In this document: in pieces, positions 555-10,510 of the stretch
Numbering within the stretch: position 1 is the stretch's first letter
Layout: each line of letters opens with the position of its first letter
Assembly: GCA_016932965.1 (NCBI GenBank)
Contig: JAFGBW010000134.1
Coordinates: forward strand, 1-10,510
Length of the DNA: 10,510 bases
Direction: 5' to 3'
DNA from: Candidatus Auribacterota bacterium
GTDB lineage: Bacteria; Auribacterota; JAFGBW01
The notes under the pieces: model-generated
The model's database searches: none
Seen by the model: only the letters and a program-made list of their open reading frames with translations
Told to the model about the DNA's origin: nothing
Program-made: the position numbers and the translations under genes

Positions 555-1114
555 GTTACTCCCCTCTTCATAATTTCATCGGGTTTGATGAATACAATTG
601 CGGAATCATTATCATAAATGAAGTCACGACAAAATAATTTTTTTCAGCAGAGTCCGGTTATATTTTCATGAATCATGTTGGAGAAAATTTATTTTTATAT
701 GCATTCGTGTAATTGCGGCGGACTTCGTCCTTGTTCTTCGGACTCCCGACGGTCGCGATTTCCGTTGCACTTCGATACGATATTAAAAATCAATAACAAA
801 TCAGGTTGAGCCTTAAGACTTGAATTGATTATCATCTTAAAGCCGCATAGTCGCTGAACGCGACATATAATTTCTCACCACGAAGGACAAGGAATTTGTC
901 ATCATGCCTTTAAGGCATGATGAATCTCAGATGACAAATGTCAAATCTCAAATTACAGGCGTTTCGCCTGCTTCCTTAATGCTCTTCGTGGTGAAATGAA
1001 TATCTTGATATTTCCGTATCTGTCAAACCCGGGAGTCCTCCGCCCAAGTCGGAAATTTGCCTGATAGAATTGAAAGTAAATATAACAAAAATATAAAATC
1101 AAACGGATTAACCG
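555..1114. other. Gene-free spacer with mosaic repeat copy 1
   Basis: This spacer separates the ends of two minus-strand units. No open frame here looks like a protein. From 555 to about 700 it is AT-rich and should hold the ATPase promoter, but no clear -35/-10 pair is visible. A short GC-rich patch at about 713-775 contains small hairpins such as GGAC-TTC-GTCC. From about 800 to 1028 it holds the first copy of the mosaic repeat described separately. The flaG terminator lies at the right end. Confidence 0.7.
800..1028. repeat. Mosaic interspersed repeat, copy 1
   Basis: The element is built from modules shared with 3298-3555 and 5581-5772. Module A is GAGCC followed by GACTTGAATT (about 809-826). 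Module B is the hairpin TCGC-TGAAC-GCGA (851-863). The core is bounded by perfect 10-bp inverted arms CACCACGAAG (876-885) and CTTCGTGGTG (984-993). Inside the core are a 23-nt palindrome with arms CATCATGCCTT and AAGGCATGATG around one T (900-922) and the hairpin CAGGCG-TTT-CGCCTG (956-970). A trailing module TCCGTATCTGTCAAAC (1013-1028) recurs at copy 2. No transposase is encoded, so this is a non-autonomous, BIME- or MITE-like element. Confidence 0.85.
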
Positions 1115-1117
1115 TTA
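1085..1117 (-). terminator. Probable intrinsic terminator of the flaG unit
   Basis: On the minus strand a short stem AACGG-TTAAT-CCGTT (1102-1116) overlaps the flaG stop codon and is followed by a T-rich tract (TTTGATTTTATATTTTTG). The stem is only 5 bp, so termination may be weak. The position directly after the last gene of the unit supports the call. Confidence 0.45.
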
Positions 1118-1552
1118 TACGAGATGATCAATCAAACCCTGAGTGGGCAGATTGCTGGATCGTGATAATTCGCCCCTGTAATCCTCAGGCGGAATCTGAC
1201 GGATGACTTCTTTTGTGTTCTTATTGATGACAAAAACAACCAGCTCTTTTTTAACTGCTCCTGTTTCCGGATCCTTTTTTTCAAGCATCCGAAATTGAAT
1301 ATAGGTATCCAGCATCGGAACAGACTGATGAATAGGGATTTCTTCAAACTGTTGGGAAGCTTTTCTTTCAGTCTGTAAGGACTTATCTTGCTCTTGGGCA
1401 AGAGGATCCGACTGTTTTTTTTCTATGGGAATAATGAGATCCTTATGAACCTGATCAGCAGAAAAAAACACCTTTTCCACCTGCTTTTTAGGTTTCATAA
1501 CCTGAGGAACATCCATGTTCCTCATTTGAACTGGATCAATCACCGTATTCAT
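1115..1552 (-). CDS. flaG: FlaG family flagellar protein
   Basis: The product has 145 residues. Its C-terminal part (about 83-126) matches the FlaG pattern: YIQFRMLEK, a glycine turn, a beta-rich ELVVFVIN stretch, then the signature EVIRQIPPED (115-124). The first 80 residues are charged, Gln-rich and low in hydrophobic residues, as is usual for the variable FlaG N-terminus. FlaG proteins are small accessory proteins of polar flagella and in some species affect filament length; their biochemical role is not settled. An AGGAA ribosome site lies six bases before the ATG. The gene follows the 72-residue protein by 58 bp on the same strand, so the two are probably cotranscribed from the sigma-28-like promoter at 1874-1901. 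fliD and fliS, frequent neighbours of flaG, are not in the window. Confidence 0.82.
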   Translation of the reverse strand: MNTVIDPVQMRNMDVPQVMKPKKQVEKVFFSADQVHKDLIIPIEKKQSDPLAQEQDKSLQTERKASQQFEEIPIHQSVPMLDTYIQFRMLEKKDPETGAVKKELVVFVINKNTKEVIRQIPPEDYRGELSRSSNLPTQGLIDHLV

Positions 1553-1610
1553 GCTTTATTCCTACAAAACCCTCATGGTTCTGTATAAGAAACCCGGTTT
1601 TGACGGCATC

Positions 1611-1829
1611 TTATGCTATCAAATCCAGTATGGTTCCTTTATCTTCTGTCTTTAAGACAGACTGCTTTGGAGCGACTGGTTCTTCGGCTTTTGACTCTGC
1701 CGACTGAATTGAAACAGCATTGCCGTTTTCAACCTTCTTCAGATCGATCGCCCGCTGAAACATTTCCTTGGATTCCTGTTCAGCGATTTTGACTGATTCC
1801 AGATTTCCTTTAATGGCGCCTACTTGCAT
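1611..1829 (-). CDS. Small conserved-looking protein upstream of flaG, unknown function
   Basis: The product has 72 residues and I do not recognise the family. The N-terminal half (about 1-40) is a charged, probably helical segment. The middle is rich in Ala, Glu, Ser and Lys, and the end is a short hydrophobic motif GTILDLIA. There is no signal peptide, membrane segment or cysteine. It is a real gene by its strong ribosome site (GGGAGGT six bases before the ATG), its position just ahead of flaG, and a sigma-28-like promoter about 45 bp upstream. A late flagellar or motility role is inferred from context alone. It superficially resembles the small YjfB-type motility proteins in size, but I cannot show homology. 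Confidence 0.7.
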   Translation of the reverse strand: MQVGAIKGNLESVKIAEQESKEMFQRAIDLKKVENGNAVSIQSAESKAEEPVAPKQSVLKTEDKGTILDLIA

Positions 1830-1873
1830 TGGATACCTCCCTATAATAATACACTTATAATCTCCCAGTTCAT

Positions 1874-1901
1874 CTATCGGTTAAATACCGGACTGACTTT
1901 A
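1874..1901 (-). promoter_or_regulatory. Sigma-28 (FliA)-like promoter for the motility pair
   Basis: On the minus strand TAAAGT (1896-1901) is followed by CCGATAG (1874-1880). The FliA consensus is TAAAGTTT, 11 bases, GCCGATAA. Here the -10 element reads ACCGATAG and the spacing is one base longer than ideal. The -10 box lies about 45 bp upstream of the 72-residue protein, a sensible leader length. Because flaG is typically a late, FliA-dependent gene, motif and context agree. Confidence 0.55.
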
Positions 1902-1946
1902 GCATTATTATCAAAAAAATAATCTTTTAAGAAACAATAAAAAGAT

Positions 1947-1973
1947 ATAACTTACCTGATAAAAGCAAGTTAT
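1947..1973. promoter_or_regulatory. Inverted repeat in the divergent flaG-unit / HD-GYP spacer
   Basis: Perfect 7-bp arms ATAACTT (1947-1953) and AAGTTAT (1967-1973) are separated by 13 bases. The repeat sits between the divergent motility pair and the HD-GYP gene, where an operator could act. It is equally compatible with chance in AT-rich DNA or with a leader hairpin. Confidence 0.25.
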
Positions 1974-2024
1974 CCTTAAAAATATAAAAATTGGAAACCA
2001 CGAAAATCACTAAATCCACAAAAA

Positions 2025-3242
2025 ATGGAAAACGAACAATTCATCCATCAAATACTGGAAATCCTCAAAAAGGAAATCAGTCAGATCAAGGATATTGATT
2101 CTTTGTTGGACCGGATCCTGTTTGAGGCCAGAAAATTCACGGCGTCTGATGCAGGCTCCCTTTTCCTGGTGGAAGGGACCAAACTGAAATTCAGTTATGT
2201 CCAGAATGATTCCCTGTTTAAAGATCTCACTTTTAACAAACATCTCTATTCCAGCCAGGAAATGGAAATAGATGACAAATCCATCGCTGGCTATGTCGCT
2301 TTAACGGGGCAGACTCTCCAGATTGAAGATGTCTATGACCTGGGTCCGGACGAGCCTTACAGTTTTAACAGCACCTATGATCTGGCTTCTTCATACAGGA
2401 CCAGGTCCATGCTTGTTGTTCCTTTAAGGACTGGAGAAAATAAAATTGTCGGAGTCATCCAGCTGATCAATACCTTGCAAAGTGATCAGACACCAGGTAT
2501 ATACTCACAGCAGCACCGGCTCATGGCCGAACTTTTTGCTGATCAGGCTGCGATTGCCATAGAAAGGGCCAAGATGACCCGCGCCATCATCTTGAGAATG
2601 ATAAAAATGGCCGAACTAAGGGATCCGAAAGAAACAGGTGCTCACGTGAACCGGGTGGGGGCCTACTCCATTGAAATCTATCACCAGTGGGCGCGAACCC
2701 GGAACATTCCCGAAAAAGATATCAAATATTTTCTAGATACATTGCGCATTGCCGCCATGCTGCATGACGTTGGAAAGGTCGCTATTTCAGACACGATCCT
2801 GAAAAAACCCGGAAAATTGACCCAAGAAGAATATGAACTCATGAAGTGGCACACCGTTGCGGGTCATGAGCTCTTTCGCGATCCGACATCGGATTTGGAC
2901 TCCATGGCTGCCGATATTGCGCTCACCCATCACGAAAAATGGGACGGAACGGGTTATCCCGGACACATCAAACAAGATAAAGAAAACCCTGGTGCTGCTT
3001 CTCAAGGGAAAAAAGGCGAAAGGATCCCCCTGGCAGGAAGAATAGTGGCCCTGGCTGACGTTTATGATGCCCTGATTTCCAAGCGCTGTTACAAGGACGC
3101 CTGGCCTGAAGAAAAAGTGCTCTCACATATACAGGAACAATCGGGTTTTCACTTTGATCCTTCACTTGTCGAAGCATTTTTCTCCATTTATGAAGTCATC
3201 AAAGCCATCCGGGACAAATACGCGGATCCGGAAACAGGATGA
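2025..3242 (+). CDS. GAF-domain HD-GYP cyclic-di-GMP phosphodiesterase
   Basis: The product has 405 residues. A GAF sensor domain occupies about 20-185 (SDAGSLFLVE near 41; VVPLRTGENKIVGVIQLIN near 131-149). A linker helix leads to an HD-GYP domain at about 190-395. HD-GYP features seen are H207, the HD pair in AAMLHDVGK (H247-D248), H276 in KWHT, HHEKWDGTGYPG (302-313) and the ALADVYDAL helix (342-350). HD-GYP enzymes hydrolyse cyclic-di-GMP in the cytoplasm and so usually favour motility; the GAF domain would bind a small ligand or relay a signal. The loop between GYPG and RIPLAGRI is about 14 residues longer than in compact members and is rich in Lys, Gly and Gln. There is no transmembrane segment. 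The ATG lacks a clear ribosome site, although it is the first Met and the GAF domain needs this length. Divergence from flaG fits a motility link, which is inferred. Confidence 0.9.
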   Translation: MENEQFIHQILEILKKEISQIKDIDSLLDRILFEARKFTASDAGSLFLVEGTKLKFSYVQNDSLFKDLTFNKHLYSSQEMEIDDKSIAGYVALTGQTLQIEDVYDLGPDEPYSFNSTYDLASSYRTRSMLVVPLRTGENKIVGVIQLINTLQSDQTPGIYSQQHRLMAELFADQAAIAIERAKMTRAIILRMIKMAELRDPKETGAHVNRVGAYSIEIYHQWARTRNIPEKDIKYFLDTLRIAAMLHDVGKVAISDTILKKPGKLTQEEYELMKWHTVAGHELFRDPTSDLDSMAADIALTHHEKWDGTGYPGHIKQDKENPGAASQGKKGERIPLAGRIVALADVYDALISKRCYKDAWPEEKVLSHIQEQSGFHFDPSLVEAFFSIYEVIKAIRDKYADPETG

Positions 3243-3297
3243 ACGGGACGAATTTTGAGGGTTGAGTTGAAAAATAATTTTAACCGCGAGTCAGTGA

Positions 3298-3555
3298 CCT
3301 CCGGCAGAGCCGGAGGCTTGAAATTGTTGCCGGCTTAACGCCTCTTTTATGAGCCATTCAAAGTGGCATGATAATCAATGATATTCTTAAATATTTTTTC
3401 ACCACGGGGGACACGGAGAGCACGGAGGAAGTCATCATGCCCATAAGGCATGATGAATCTCAAATTCCAGGCATCCGCCTGTTCCCATTCTCAATTCTCA
3501 ATTTCTTCCCGCCTCCGTGGTAAATGAATTTTATATACTCCCGTATCTGCCAAAC
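3298..3555. repeat. Mosaic interspersed repeat, copy 2
   Basis: It opens with a perfect hairpin CCTCCGGC-AGA-GCCGGAGG (3298-3316) followed by CTTGAAATT, the module A sequence. The core has outer arms ACCACGG (3401-3407) and CCGTGGT (3515-3521), plus an alternative pair CACGGAGG (3421-3428) and CCTCCGTG (3512-3519). Inside are the 23-nt palindrome with arms CATCATGCC and GGCATGATG (3433-3455) and the hairpin CAGGC-ATCC-GCCTG (3468-3481). The trailing module CCCGTATCTGCCAAAC (3540-3555) matches copy 1. The first hairpin could also act in ending HD-GYP transcription, but it has no T tract. Confidence 0.82.
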
Positions 3556-3606
3556 TTTACAAGTCCAGTTGATTGCGGCTGCGCCGTGCTAACCCGCATT
3601 CGCGTT

Positions 3607-3647
3607 AAAAACAAAAAACCTCTTCTCTTTTTCAGAGAAGAGGTTTT
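3607..3647 (-). terminator. Strong intrinsic terminator after the HU gene
   Basis: On the minus strand a 14-bp perfect stem (3615-3628 paired with 3634-3647; core AACCTCTTCTCT) encloses a 5-nt loop and is followed by TTTTTTGTTTTT. It lies about 25 bases after the HU stop codon. On the plus strand the stem is followed only by a short T run, so it is mainly directional. Confidence 0.92.
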
Positions 3648-3672
3648 GTTATTCTCAACGAATGAGAAAAAA

Positions 3673-3963
3673 TTATTTTGTCTTCTTGGCCATTTCCTTG
3701 AGAGCGGCGCCGCATTTGAAACCGACGGTCTTGGAAGCTTTAATTTTAATGGTTTGACCGGTTTTTGGGTTCCTTCCGTTTCTGGCTGCCCTGTTCTTCA
3801 CTGCGAATGTTCCAAAGCCGATCAACTGAACGCAGCCGTCCTTTTTAATGCCAGTTTCAATCCCGTCTATGACGGCATTCAGTGCTTTTTCCGCGGAAGC
3901 CTTGCTGCAGAATCCAGCTTCTTTGTTTTTCAAAATGGTCTCAACCAATTCGCCTTTATTCAT
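3673..3963 (-). CDS. hup: HU-family DNA-binding protein
   Basis: The product has 96 residues. It has the HU order: N-terminal helices beginning MNKGELVETI, the GFGTF turn (49-53), the DNA-binding arm with NGRNPKTG (62-69, including the intercalating Pro66), and a C-terminal helix ending in a basic MAKKTK tail. HU is a dimeric nucleoid protein that bends DNA and assists replication, repair and recombination. An open frame continues to an ATG at 4041, but the start at 3963 is chosen because AAAGGAGG lies seven bases upstream and family members begin here. A Cys at 18 and others at 44 and 84 are unusual for HU but not prohibitive. The gene is monocistronic, with a TTGACA promoter upstream and a strong terminator downstream. 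HU and IHF subunits are close relatives; the motif and length favour HU. Confidence 0.93.
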   Translation of the reverse strand: MNKGELVETILKNKEAGFCSKASAEKALNAVIDGIETGIKKDGCVQLIGFGTFAVKNRAARNGRNPKTGQTIKIKASKTVGFKCGAALKEMAKKTK

Positions 3964-4019
3964 CCGTTTCCTCCTTTGTATAGGTTGAATAATACACTTA
4001 ATTAAATCATGAGTTTTCA

Positions 4020-4048
4020 TTCTTATTGAAAAACGAATCATCTGTCAA
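4020..4048 (-). promoter_or_regulatory. Likely sigma-70-type promoter of the HU gene
   Basis: On the minus strand a perfect TTGACA (4043-4048) is followed after 17 bases by TAAGAA (4020-4025), a weak -10 match. The leader to the HU start codon would be about 50 bases. The -35 match and spacing are good. TATTAT at about 3985-3992 is a better -10 box but has no -35 partner. Confidence 0.5.
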
Positions 4049-4175
4049 TTTCTTGTTTTACAATTATTTTTTCTCGTCGGAATCCTCAATTCATGACTCA
4101 TAACACTACTGTCCGGTTTATTTTTTTATTCGTGCTTATGTTCTTCTCTATCGCATTAAATTTGAGCAACGTTTT

Positions 4176-4254
4176 TAGAATTGAGAAGCAAGAATTCAGT
4201 TGGACTGCAAGGCAGCCGAAGGCGTTCCTATTGAATTCTGAATCCTGAATTCTA
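4176..4254. repeat. AATTGAG-type inverted repeat, copy 1
   Basis: The outer arms TAGAATT (4176-4182) and AATTCTA (4248-4254) pair perfectly and extend imperfectly inward (AAGAATTCAG against CTGAATCCTGAATTC). The centre carries CGAAGGCGTT (4217-4226), the reverse complement of a motif found as AACGTCTTCG in the second copy (7876-7885). It abuts the TGTCCGGCTT element directly. Confidence 0.6.
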
Positions 4255-4334
4255 TGTCCGGCTTCTTTAAATTTTCAATAAAACCCTTTATTTTATTGTA
4301 TTTCATCTTATTCCCTCATTTTTAAGCCGGACAT
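4254..4334. mobile_element. MITE-like element with TGTCCGGCTT ends, copy 1
   Basis: Perfect 11-bp terminal inverted repeats ATGTCCGGCTT (4254-4264) and AAGCCGGACAT (4324-4334) enclose an AT-rich middle. Its reverse complement aligns over its whole length with 7761-7840, at roughly three quarters identity by eye, including an internal ACAATAAAATA block. It is far too short to encode a transposase, so it would be mobilised in trans or be a remnant of an insertion sequence. On the minus strand GATGAAATACAATAAAAT resembles the beginning of a gene, consistent with an IS relic. Confidence 0.7.
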
Positions 4335-4370
4335 CCATGTTTCAGGTTGTTTGTTGATAAAGATCCTTCT

Positions 4371-4436
4371 CACCATTCACTATTCACCACCAACCAACAA
4401 CTGACAACCATCAACCATTTACCATTCTCAACTCAT
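4371..4436. repeat. Degenerate G-poor CCATTCACC-type tract
   Basis: This stretch of about 66 bases contains a single G on the plus strand and consists of degenerate units such as ACCATTCAC, CACCAACC, CAACCATTTACC. It is low-complexity, non-coding in appearance, and lies just downstream of queG. Confidence 0.6.
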
Positions 4437-4465
4437 GATTATCTATTTTAACCGGATAAAAATGA

Positions 4466-5542
4466 TCATGATTTGTCTCTCCTGATTCCAGCCTTTTTAA
4501 TCTGTGAAATGGCCCATCCGGCGGCCTCACGAATCAAAGGATCATTTTCATTTTCTCTTAAATGTCTCAGATCAGAAAGCCATTTGCGGTCCTTCAAATT
4601 GCCTGCCGCGATGCAGGCATTCCGCATCAGTATATTTCTTCCCCCCCTGAAAAAAACACTGTCCCTGAATTCCTGCTCAAACTGATGCGGAGAAGACAAA
4701 GAAAAAATTTTCTTCAGTCCCAGATTTTCATAAACAGCATCATCCCTTTTTATTTTGATGCGTTGATTATAGGGACAAGCACGCTGACATAGGTCACATC
4801 CCCAGATACAATTCTTCAACAATGGCCGAAACGATCGCGGGATCATCCCTTTTTGTTCGATCGTTTGATAAGAAAGACACTTGTTTGCTTTCAAGTAGTA
4901 AGATTGTTCCAATGCCCCGGTTGGACAGGTCTTGAGACACAACTTGCAGGAACCGCAACTATTTTTCACCGGAGAATCCGGTACTAACTCCAAAGAGGTG
5001 AGAATCCCCGAAAGAAACAAATACGAACCCAGATTTTCATTAATCAAGAGGGTATTCTTGCCGATAAAACCCAGTCCGGCCGATTGGGCGAATGCTTTTT
5101 CTAAAATAGGAGAACTATCCACAAAAGATTTGAATTCCGTACCGGGAAATAAGACCTGCAACTCTTTAATCAAAAGGGTCATCTTTTTCCGGATGGCATG
5201 ATGATAATCAGGAAACAGGGCAAAAAAGGCCGTTTCTATCTCATTTTTCGTTTTTAAAAAAAATTGCCCGGGAAAATAACTGGTCCCCAGCATGATGATG
5301 CTTCTGCCGGTTGATAACAAGGCCGCTGGATCAGCACGGTTTTCCGGAGACCGCTCCATGTATTTCATGGAACCATGGGATTTGTTATCGAGCCAGTCCT
5401 GAAGTGCCAGGAATCCCTTCTTGTGAAAAGAAACTCCGGTGATTCCCGCCAGATCAAATCCGGCTTCCAATGCCTTTTTTTTAATCCATACGGTCGATTC
5501 TTCTTTCTTCACTTTAAAAACACTCCATGCGCTCCTAACCAT
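4466..5542 (-). CDS. queG: Epoxyqueuosine reductase QueG
   Basis: The product has 358 residues. QueG is a cytoplasmic cobalamin- and iron-sulfur-dependent enzyme that reduces epoxyqueuosine to queuosine at the wobble base of GUN tRNAs. The catalytic region VDSSPILEKAFAQSAGLGFI (141-160) contains the conserved Asp142. Two ferredoxin-like 4Fe-4S motifs follow: C196-x2-C199-x2-C202-x3-C206 with C222, and C245/C249-x2-C252-x3-C256 in CIWGCDLCQRACP. The C-terminal 60 residues resemble a HEAT-like repeat (GWAISQI), as in full-length QueG. The ATG at 5542 has a weak AGG five bases upstream; a GTG at 5512 (Val11) is an alternative start, and family members usually need only 10-15 residues before the AGFDLAGI segment. 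The gene stands alone between repeat-laden spacers, with no other queuosine genes visible. Confidence 0.95.
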   Translation of the reverse strand: MVRSAWSVFKVKKEESTVWIKKKALEAGFDLAGITGVSFHKKGFLALQDWLDNKSHGSMKYMERSPENRADPAALLSTGRSIIMLGTSYFPGQFFLKTKNEIETAFFALFPDYHHAIRKKMTLLIKELQVLFPGTEFKSFVDSSPILEKAFAQSAGLGFIGKNTLLINENLGSYLFLSGILTSLELVPDSPVKNSCGSCKLCLKTCPTGALEQSYYLKANKCLSYQTIEQKGMIPRSFRPLLKNCIWGCDLCQRACPYNQRIKIKRDDAVYENLGLKKIFSLSSPHQFEQEFRDSVFFRGGRNILMRNACIAAGNLKDRKWLSDLRHLRENENDPLIREAAGWAISQIKKAGIRRDKS

Positions 5543-5580
5543 TAAAACCTAATTTTATCAGCAGGAAACCGGAATCAAAA

Positions 5581-5772
5581 TACCTCCGGCAGAGCCTCAT
5601 GACTTGAAATTATTCTCGTCGCAAAGCATCATATATAAAACCGCTGAACGCGGCATGTAATTTTTAACCACGGAGAAAGCAGGCGAAACGCCTATGATTT
5701 GAGATTCGAGATTCATCATGCCTTAAAGGCATGATGACAAACTCCGAGCTCTCCTTGTGGAGTGGTTAAAAA
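5581..5772. repeat. Mosaic interspersed repeat, copy 3 (core inverted)
   Basis: Module A (CCTCCGGCAGAGCC, then GACTTGAAATTATT) and the module B hairpin CCGC-TGAAC-GCGG (5641-5653) lie in the same order and orientation as in copy 1. The core is bounded by perfect 11-bp arms TTTTTAACCAC (5661-5671) and GTGGTTAAAAA (5762-5772). Its internal parts come in reverse order and as reverse complement: first AGGCG-AAA-CGCCT (5681-5693), then the 23-nt palindrome around a central A (5714-5736). So the core is flipped relative to its flanking modules. Confidence 0.85.
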
Positions 5773-7741: not shown

Positions 7742-7760
7742 ACTAAATTGAGATCATGAA

Positions 7761-7840
7761 TGTCCGGCTTAAAAAATAAAGAAATAACGCGAAACACAAT
7801 AAAATATTAGGGTCTAATTAAAAATATAACAAAGCCGGAC
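7761..7840. mobile_element. MITE-like element with TGTCCGGCTT ends, copy 2
   Basis: TGTCCGGCTT (7761-7770) and AAGCCGGAC (7832-7840) form 9-bp terminal inverted repeats around an AT-rich centre with ACACAATAAAATA. It aligns end to end with the reverse complement of 4254-4334. It begins 19 bases after the recJ stop codon and has no coding capacity. Confidence 0.7.
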
Positions 7841-7940
7841 TGGAATTAAGAATTGAGAATTAGGAATTTAAAAAAAACGTCTTCGAATTTTGTAAGAGAT
7901 TAAGGACAAAGCCTGGAACAATTCTCAATCCTGAATTCTA
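7841..7940. repeat. AATTGAG-type inverted repeat, copy 2
   Basis: GAATTGAGAAT (7850-7860) pairs with ATTCTCAATC (7921-7930) with one mismatch or bulge, and the flanking GGAATT and GAATTC extend the similarity. The centre carries AACGTCTTCG (7876-7885), matching the first copy on the opposite strand. It directly abuts the TGTCCGGCTT element, as copy 1 does in mirror image. Confidence 0.55.
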
Positions 7941-9785: not shown

Positions 9786-10212
9786 ATTTTTTATGTCAAC
9801 CCCTTTCTAAGAAATAAAATACGCATATTCAAGAACTCATTAAAAAATGAATCTGTATAAGTGAAGTTGTTAACTAATTTTGTGCTCTTGACAATGATTA
9901 TAAACATTCTACGAATTTATACTATCACAAAAAATGATATAAAAAAACAAGTAAAGTTCAATTTGGCTGCTCTCATAACCCAGCCCGGAGTATTTCCTAA
10001 CATTGATTTTTGTTTCTTCACTCGATAAGGGAACGAGGCATGCAAAAAGGTCATCAGTTTCATGTGAAAATGATCTTCTAGGCAGGTGACCGATACTCTT
10101 ATAAAAACGAATCATCCCGCCAGAATCATTTTTTGGCTCTATAAAAAAATCTGTGGGTATTTTTAACCATTTTTTTCGATTTTATATTCTTCTCTTCCTT
10201 GATGAGCAGAAT
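9786..10212. other. AT-rich region without a convincing gene
   Basis: This should include the promoter of the binding-protein gene, but no well-placed -35/-10 pair is clear: a TTGACA on the minus strand (9794-9799) lies too close to the start codon. A minus-strand open frame (9909 to about 10170) has some protein-like stretches but no good ribosome site. The region ends in the AGAATTCAGGAGTCAGAATT repeat at about 10207-10230, a short relative of the AATTGAG repeats. Confidence 0.5.
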
Positions 10213-10510
10213 TCAGGAGTCAGAATTCAGAATCATAGAATGAACATAGGTTTCTAATAGTTTACTCACTTCTATAAATAGAGATAATAATTCAGGATTA
10301 TTCCCATAACCTCAATCTTTCGCTAATATGAGATAATAGCGGCATTCTTCAATTGAACCTTGGGCGATATTGAAAAAACGCACTTTGTCCTTGTCAGATT
10401 TTTTTTTGAAACCTTCAGCAATATTTGCCGGTATAGAAACAGAAGCTCTTCGGAATTGGGAACTCAAACCAAACATTTCTTCTTTGGGAAATGATCGGCT
10501 AAAAGAATAA
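10213..10510 (-). pseudogene. Four-helix-bundle (S23 / 23S IVS-type) protein with in-frame TGA, cut by right edge
   Basis: The minus-strand frame entering from the right edge reads FPKEEMFGLSSQFRRASVSI, then PANIAEGF, then FNIAQGSIEECRYYLILAKD. This is the hallmark of the four-helix-bundle family first seen in 23S rRNA intervening sequences and now common as stand-alone genes of unclear function. A TGA (10312-10314) follows at about two thirds of the usual length. The same frame then continues with GYGNNPELLSLFIEVSKLLE, as expected for the missing fourth helix, up to a TGA at 10213-10215. A single base change (TTA or TTG to TGA) explains this. About 20 N-terminal residues lie outside the window. 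TGA ends other genes here (queG, recO, HD-GYP), so recoding is unlikely. Confidence 0.8.

Follow-up and report, generated by a model that had tools for sequence, protein, structure and literature searches.

What kind of element accounts for the three similar spacers, called copies 1, 2 and 3 here, that interrupt the genes of a 10,510-nucleotide stretch of Candidatus Auribacterota DNA (contig JAFGBW010000134.1, hereafter the window), and does it have a partner gene? The window corresponds to contig C205, and the draft genome to which it belongs, 92.6% complete, comprises 3.14 Mb in 300 contigs. Its source is the lone member of its family, and about 43 other genomes from its phylum were included in the comparison. 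All three spacers represent one and the same nested, non-coding repeat that lies between genes. Its outer arms belong to a cross-phylum family of inverted repeats, the gene-bearing members of which carry a GxxExxY gene. We refer to this family as type 1, and consider the copies to be, probably, a local composite based on members of the family that lack the gene and resemble miniature inverted-repeat transposable elements (MITEs).

A nested repeat in the spacers and genome-wide

The modules that a first-pass annotation had assigned to the three spacers were all present, at the places given for them or a few bases off. The inner parts aligned at 92.5% over 40 nt between copies 1 and 2 (score 56) and at 94.4% over 72 nt between copy 1 and the reversed copy 3 (score 90), compared with a maximum of 23 for shuffled sequences. 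At one border of the repeat, here termed the A end, copy 3 matched copies 1 and 2 with scores of 47 and 41, respectively; compared directly with each other, copies 1 and 2 were only weakly alike here, with a score of 16 that lies inside the shuffled range (up to 22). Folded as single-stranded DNA, copies 1, 2 and 3 had z-scores of −8.5, −4.1 and −6.2, respectively, and none of 200 shuffles was equally stable.

The modules are nested in layers and not freely shuffled. From the outside inwards these are a frame, inverted arms made of CACGRAG units, and a filler. The A end of the frame is composed of a CCTCCGGCAGAGCCGGAGG hairpin, CTTGAAATT and a TGAACCACTCAAAGTGGC-type hairpin, whereas the opposite B end, of which 25 copies were counted, has TTCCGTATCTGTCAAAC or TTCCGGAATTGTCAAAC and a further CCGGC hairpin. 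The arms within the frame read TTTCACCACGGAGGACACGGAGAGCACGGAG...CTCCGTGGTGAAA, or a CACGAAG version of these; about 86 CACGRAG arm sites are present genome-wide, and the arms in copies 1–3 are partly degenerate. The commonest filler, found in either orientation, consists of a CATCATGCC palindrome, a linker and a CAGGC hairpin. Other fillers were also seen, and locus L437 has bare arms (CACCACTCCACACGGAGTGGTG). CCGTATCTG(T/C)CAAAC was found at 1014–1028 in copy 1 and at 3541–3555 in copy 2 and not in copy 3. The modules that the earlier description gave as reordered in copy 3 reflect an inverted inner unit, which is the main difference of this copy from the others.

The proposal of a multi-copy mosaic family was borne out. 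The palindrome, in a 25-nt form, has about 35 copies in the genome and none in the reversed-pattern control, and blastn with copy 1 as query against its own genome returned 77 matches at E ≤ 1, many of them the palindrome hit on both strands, which excludes the outcome that only three copies exist. The intergenic placement noted for the three copies also extends further, with 33 of 34 palindromes outside open reading frames (ORFs) of ≥100 aa, though about 85% of the scanned DNA is coding; these position and orientation statistics derive from about 394 kb of contigs picked for carrying copies and are biased for density estimates. When mapped on the same contigs, the copies favoured neither gene ends nor a particular gene orientation, with 18 copies between genes of the same direction, 5 between convergent and 4 between divergent genes, and a gene-end or terminator role was rejected on this basis. 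The first-pass annotation recognised no named family in the repeat, and Rfam covariance models likewise matched nothing at the three copies (E up to 1).

The outer arms in other phyla

A search of related genomes, which had been suggested at the outset, succeeded for the arms and failed for the other layers. The first 22 nt of the arm, at ≤2 mismatches, occurred in 17 of 98 relatives, and the reversed pattern in none of the 98. By contrast, the 25-nt palindrome was absent from 97 relatives at ≤1 mismatch, and a narrower palindrome pattern (TCATCATGCCTNNAAGGCATGATGA) had no match in named GTDB contigs. The frame A end, with 15 matches in its own genome, had none in same-order genomes and elsewhere just one 27-nt match of chance level. 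An exact 23-mer of the arm was found in at least 116 stretches of named species genomes. The hosts listed include Alpha-, Beta-, Gamma-, Delta- and Zetaproteobacteria, Acidobacteria and Planctomycetes, as well as Chloroflexi, Nitrospirae, Verrucomicrobia, Gemmatimonadetes and Treponema. Most of the listed stretches are inverted pairs (hairpins) of 65–250 nt, and the arm motif was also present on 20 viral contigs.

Paired arms covary in these other phyla: 73 pairs were GAAG/GAAG and 15 were GGAG/GGAG (88 matched), with 1 mixed. The conserved pairing predicted for the repeat is therefore seen in the outer arms. For the palindrome (23 or 25 nt) it was not demonstrated: what is conserved in this module is the sequence, a single compensatory change being present among the 35 copies, so that a covarying RNA hairpin is not shown.

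GxxExxY genes between inverted arms

GxxExxY proteins often start with what seems to be translated arm sequence, and this gave the lead for testing the flanks of their genes. We collected 127 GxxExxY genes (PF13366/TIGR04256) together with their flanks, both in this phylum and outside it, and termed a gene inverted-armed when the best inverted match between its two flanks scored ≥30. This applied to 79.5% of the 127 genes; among control ORFs, the share was 1.2% for 85 others at these loci and 0.7% for 442 of the window's genome (GxxExxY versus control, p = 1.5e-29). Moreover, 96 of the 127 lay above the 95% level of a mismatched-flank comparison. Each arm is a run of about three quasi-tandem units with the core CRCnnAn, one unit every 9–10 nt, and the second arm is an inverted counterpart of the first. 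Of 78 elements in which the unit was clear, 76 had their modal unit in both arms, and the fraction of identical units was 0.76 inside one element versus 0.30 when pooled.

In Schlesneria (Planctomycetota; locus L173) the GxxExxY gene lies between exact TTTCACCACGAAGGACACGAAG-type CACGAAG arms, 437 bp in total, and a second planctomycete (L123) has the same layout, the two being 82% alike. On either side of the L173 element lie similar direct repeats, each some 45 bp long (GGTCAACTTGACYCRCAGTC..., ~341–402 and 845–900), which are perhaps another genome-specific frame. On plasmids there were few GxxExxY relatives (5 records).

Coupling of arm unit and protein

The arm variant follows the protein and not the host. 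Protein distance correlated with unit distance (Mantel r = 0.44, p ~2e-4), and the correlation persisted at <45% identity (r = 0.21, p ~5e-4); unit distance was 1.9 within one genome and 1.96 between genomes. From this coupling and the host-independent unit distances it follows that a gene moves together with its arms as a single cassette, which is compatible with arm recognition and is no proof of it. The last unit base was G in 37 of 42 LL-type (G-LL-E) proteins and other than G in 29 of 30 G-F-type proteins, counts that are not corrected for kinship. Across loci L230–L423, the G-L versus G-F position after LG.G split nearly without exception with the last unit base (37/5 versus 1/29); this position is a candidate specificity determinant or else a marker of two clades. 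Our guess is that the coordinated change of all units in one element comes about by slippage or conversion between units.

A predicted nuclease

The NCBI name 'GxxExxY protein' is derived from the motif alone. The gene has about 125 codons, and D67, E77, K79 and a QxxxY motif, the mark of RecB/Cas4-type nucleases, are conserved among the proteins. The AlphaFold model (pLDDT 96) had Cas4 SSO0001 as its best match in the PDB (E 7e-4, Z 9.8), and further PD-(D/E)XK nucleases, among them Holliday-junction resolvases, ranked next; a sequence search for a solved homologue gave none that was credible. From the model, GxxExxY is predicted to be a Cas4/RecB-like PD-(D/E)XK nuclease with a presumed activity of that kind. 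It shares the predicted fold and the D..ExK and QxxxY motifs with these enzymes, but is much smaller (~125 aa) and encoded inside inverted arms and, unlike Cas4, showed no CRISPR link in the loci examined.

We found no work on GxxExxY function in the open-access literature, where the DNA motifs of arms and repeat gave only unrelated primer-type matches; within that literature the element family is apparently undescribed. Geobacter multicopy nucleotide sequences comprise intergenic palindromic families and 6–42-nt direct-repeat families (PMC2996986). In the sections of that catalogue used here, and by description rather than alignment, they differ in being listed without a partner gene. The covariation of GxxExxY with its arms gives a protein named only by its motif a first testable role. 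It also suggests which gene might belong to intergenic hairpins that recur across phyla and would otherwise be listed as repeats of no known kind. The way in which LL and F proteins divide by the last unit base hints that a small number of residues may suffice for GxxExxY to read its unit (e.g. CACGAAG or CACAGAT); if so, it would represent a compact family of sequence-specific nucleases.

Gene-less copies and GxxExxY relics

Copies 1–3 are without any ORF between their arms and hence without a GxxExxY gene, for which reason we call them gene-less derivatives rather than full type-1 members. Locus L233 of the same genome has a CACGAAG arm followed by a truncated GxxExxY reading (LGPGLLQSTYEQCL / MKFDELFNEVVECTIEVHHNLGPGLLQSTYEQCL), which is similar to proteins whose genes have CACGAAG/CACGGAG arms at other loci (L298, LGPGLLESTYEQCL; L238, LGPGLLESAYEQCL), and genome G001, of the same order, contains a decayed gene that adjoins a CACGAAG arm. 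It is on account of these CACGRAG-type relics that the inner hairpins of the window are read as gene-less derivatives. Among the genomes rich in CACGRAG, a gene or a relic accompanies an arm of this kind in G000, G001, G008, G015 and G028 and not in G030, so that the match between CACGRAG hairpins and a GxxExxY gene or relic across these six genomes is suggestive only. CGCAGAG hairpins are present elsewhere in the window's genome.

In the working that we propose as the most likely, the arms would fold into a hairpin when single-stranded, and the GxxExxY protein would process this DNA on recognising the unit that its own arms contain. Any element whose arms match could then be duplicated or transferred, either in cis or in trans, the latter being the route for gene-less hairpins. 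Here, the gene of the CACGRAG type would have decayed while gene-less hairpins persisted; these may have captured fillers (the palindrome, the CAGGC hairpin and pieces of type 2, described below), and the composite, together with its local frame, may then have spread until there were about 35 of it. In this scheme we infer that arms are recognised and cut and that hairpins are mobilised in trans, and also in which order the events took place.

Several points weigh against such an origin. The sole intact GxxExxY gene of this genome has CGCAGAG arms, not CACGRAG. There was no target-site duplication, repeats of ≥6 nt occurring in 11% of elements versus 10% of mismatched flank pairs. No clean empty/filled pair of one locus was found in two strains; L067 is a frame without arms, yet it lies at a different locus and is diverged. 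The proposal does not account for the 25-nt palindrome and the frame, both of which were found in this genome only. In addition, arm–protein coupling may result from joint inheritance as a cassette and not from recognition, a view that host-independence leaves standing, and the three-unit arm could have another role, e.g. in autoregulation or RNA processing.

Other explanations for the copies

Such a role underlies the rival that survives best, in which the hairpins are not self-mobile. They would be regulatory or RNA-processing structures (RNase III sites, terminators or autoregulatory elements), copied by recombination or template switching between repeats. RNase III is known to excise the intervening sequence (IVS) of 23S rRNA at a 28-bp terminal stem (PMC4990558), and the type-2 arms around IVP/S23 genes are similar in layout; quasi-tandem arms would also favour slippage or switching, and fillers are swapped between identical arms. 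We nevertheless regard this explanation as unlikely, because the copies have no gene-end or orientation bias and because near-identical arms in many phyla, with homogeneous units coupled to a protein, are unexpected of passive terminators.

A classical MITE of a DDE transposase, bounded by terminal inverted repeats and short target duplications, is improbable. The spacers and their relatives do have inverted terminal arms, a length of 65–250 nt and many copies, the gene-less ones exceeding those that bear a gene, and insertion is in an AT-rich part of the frame. However, target duplications were not above the chance level given above, the enclosed gene is a GxxExxY of the PD-(D/E)XK family and no DDE transposase, and the arms change coordinately as repeated units, unlike those of MITEs.

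More doubtful still is a repetitive extragenic palindromic (REP), bacterial interspersed mosaic element (BIME) or REPIN-type repeat whose tagged hairpins would be the substrate of a Y1 (HUH) RAYT transposase and would spread through it. Such repeats are also high-copy intergenic palindromes, mosaic and inverted, with strong single-strand folds; they are non-autonomous with a proposed cognate enzyme paired to the repeat type, and for them the lack of a target-site duplication is expected. Yet no PF01797 (Y1) match was obtained in this 92.6% complete genome, the same search being positive in 5 control genomes, and GTAG/CTAC or CGTC/GACG tags were found within 14 nt on either side of 0 of 35 palindromes. 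The arms are quasi-tandem triplets tied to GxxExxY genes instead and, unlike RAYT, the linked enzyme has a predicted PD-(D/E)XK (Cas4-like) fold and is encoded between the arms. The BIME-type label of the first-pass annotation consequently serves as an analogy for the mosaic build, and not as a family membership. Finally, a chance origin of the arms as low-complexity, G/A-rich quasi-tandem sequence, conceivable for units so short and simple, was refuted by the reversed pattern (0 matches in 98 genomes) and by the control ORFs (comparable flanks in 1%), besides the covariation of the arms.

Layout and neighbours of the three copies

Copy 1 lies between an AAA-ATPase gene and a FlaG-like gene of the same direction. 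All its features are on the + strand except the right arm. The frame A end (804–871), with GAGCC..GACTTGAATT and a CGCTGAACGCG hairpin, belongs to the A-end family seen in this genome only. It is followed by the left type-1 arm (TCTCACCACGAAGGACAAGGAATTTG, 873–898), which has the cross-phylum motif, and by the 25-nt palindrome TCATCATGCCTTTAAGGCATGATGA (899–923) of the genome-wide set. The quasi-repeated linker ATCTCAGATGACAAATGTCAAATCTCAAATTA (924–955) resembles, by eye, the arms of a four-helix-bundle gene at locus L333. The CAGGC-type hairpin CAGGCGTTTCGCCTG (956–970) and the right type-1 arm CTTCCTTAATGCTCTTCGTGGTGAAA (971–996, − strand) were assigned by sequence and fold, and the frame B end CCGTATCTGTCAAAC, with a degenerate hairpin, occupies 1014–1062.

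Copy 2 is placed between convergent genes, a GAF/HD (HD-GYP) gene and an HU-like gene, and again all features but the right arm are on the + strand. Its frame A end, comprising the CCTCCGGCAGAGCCGGAGG hairpin, CTTGAAATT and a TGAGCCATTCAAAGTGGC hairpin, spans 3290–3395. The left type-1 arm TTTCACCACGGGGGACACGGAGAGCACGGAG (3397–3431), recognised by the arm motif, precedes the palindrome (3432–3456) and a CAGGC-type hairpin, CAGGCATCCGCCTG (3468–3481, from sequence and fold). The quasi-tandem sequence CATTCTCAATTCTCAATTTC (3482–3508) is like the type-2 arms of four-helix-bundle genes by resemblance only. A short right type-1 arm (3509–3525, − strand) with the arm motif and a frame B end of the B-end family (3541–3600) complete the copy.

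Copy 3 separates the divergent queG and a recJ-like gene, which from its sequence we take to be recJ. The frame A end (5583–5656, + strand) was defined by alignment, and the short left type-1 arm TTTTTAACCACGGAGAAA (5661–5678, + strand) by sequence and fold. The remainder is on the − strand: a CAGGC hairpin (~5679–5693) with linker (5679–5712), inverted relative to copies 1 and 2 in the alignment; the 25-nt palindrome (5713–5737); and the right type-1 arm CTCCGAGCTCTCCTTGTGGAGTGGTTAA (5738–5769), again assigned by sequence and fold.

Four-helix-bundle genes and other repeats

Genes of the four-helix-bundle family (23S rRNA IVP/S23, Avd-related, PF05635) were inverted-armed in 77% of cases (score ≥30), with an arm sequence, type 2, that differs from type 1; pieces resembling these arms are held in the fillers. 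It is possible, though we advance it only tentatively, that GxxExxY cassettes constitute a distinct class of bacterial mobile element, with a tiny Cas4-like nuclease whose recognition of its arms is type-specific and with trans-mobilised gene-less hairpins, next to a parallel class of four-helix-bundle (Avd/S23-like) proteins that have arms of their own, and that the two classes explain a large share of the hitherto unexplained intergenic hairpins across phyla, these spacers included.

The IVS of Coxiella 23S rRNA has the 28-bp terminal stem and heptameric repeats ahead of the S23 ORF (PMC4990558), and is possibly a known case of the armed-cassette architecture. Its tandem heptamers read GACAGAT (PMC4990558). 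They resemble the CACAGAT-type arm unit. An inverted terminal stem around one small ORF is common to both systems, and PF05635 genes are arm-flanked here too; type-1 elements, in contrast, are intergenic, carry GxxExxY rather than S23 and have many gene-less copies. Membership of the spacers in the 23S rRNA IVS was rejected, the copies being between protein genes and not in rRNA.

The window itself ends in a broken four-helix-bundle gene (PF05635/TIGR02436 profile match; 10255–10510, − strand), which has an internal TGA and is cut by the window end. Beside it lies the type-2 arm AGAATTCAGGAGTCAGAATTCAG (10208–10232), and an identical arm flanks the intact IVP gene L318 in another genome. An 87% similar broken IVP/S23 copy is located on contig C211 (L069, ~11076–11477), which is evidence for duplication inside this genome. 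At L333 (G000:C148) an intact four-helix-bundle gene has flanks, ATCTCAAATTTGAGATC ... AAATTTGAGATATTAGATATGAGAT, that resemble the linker of the inner element.

Another inverted frame, GTCCGGCTTAAAAA ... AAGCCGGAC, was observed in the window at 4256–4340 and 7755–7840. It adjoins AATTCAG/AATTGAG-type arms (4177–4253 and 7849–7939), and its sequence is also found by the broken IVP gene in L069. A quasi-tandem stretch at 4370–4440, CCATTCACTATTCACCACCAACCAACAACTGACAACCATCAACCATTTACC, is styled like four-helix-bundle gene arms. In genome G051, four-helix-bundle matches recur as close back-to-back pairs (e.g. C7:104028-104554 and C2:122174-122711).

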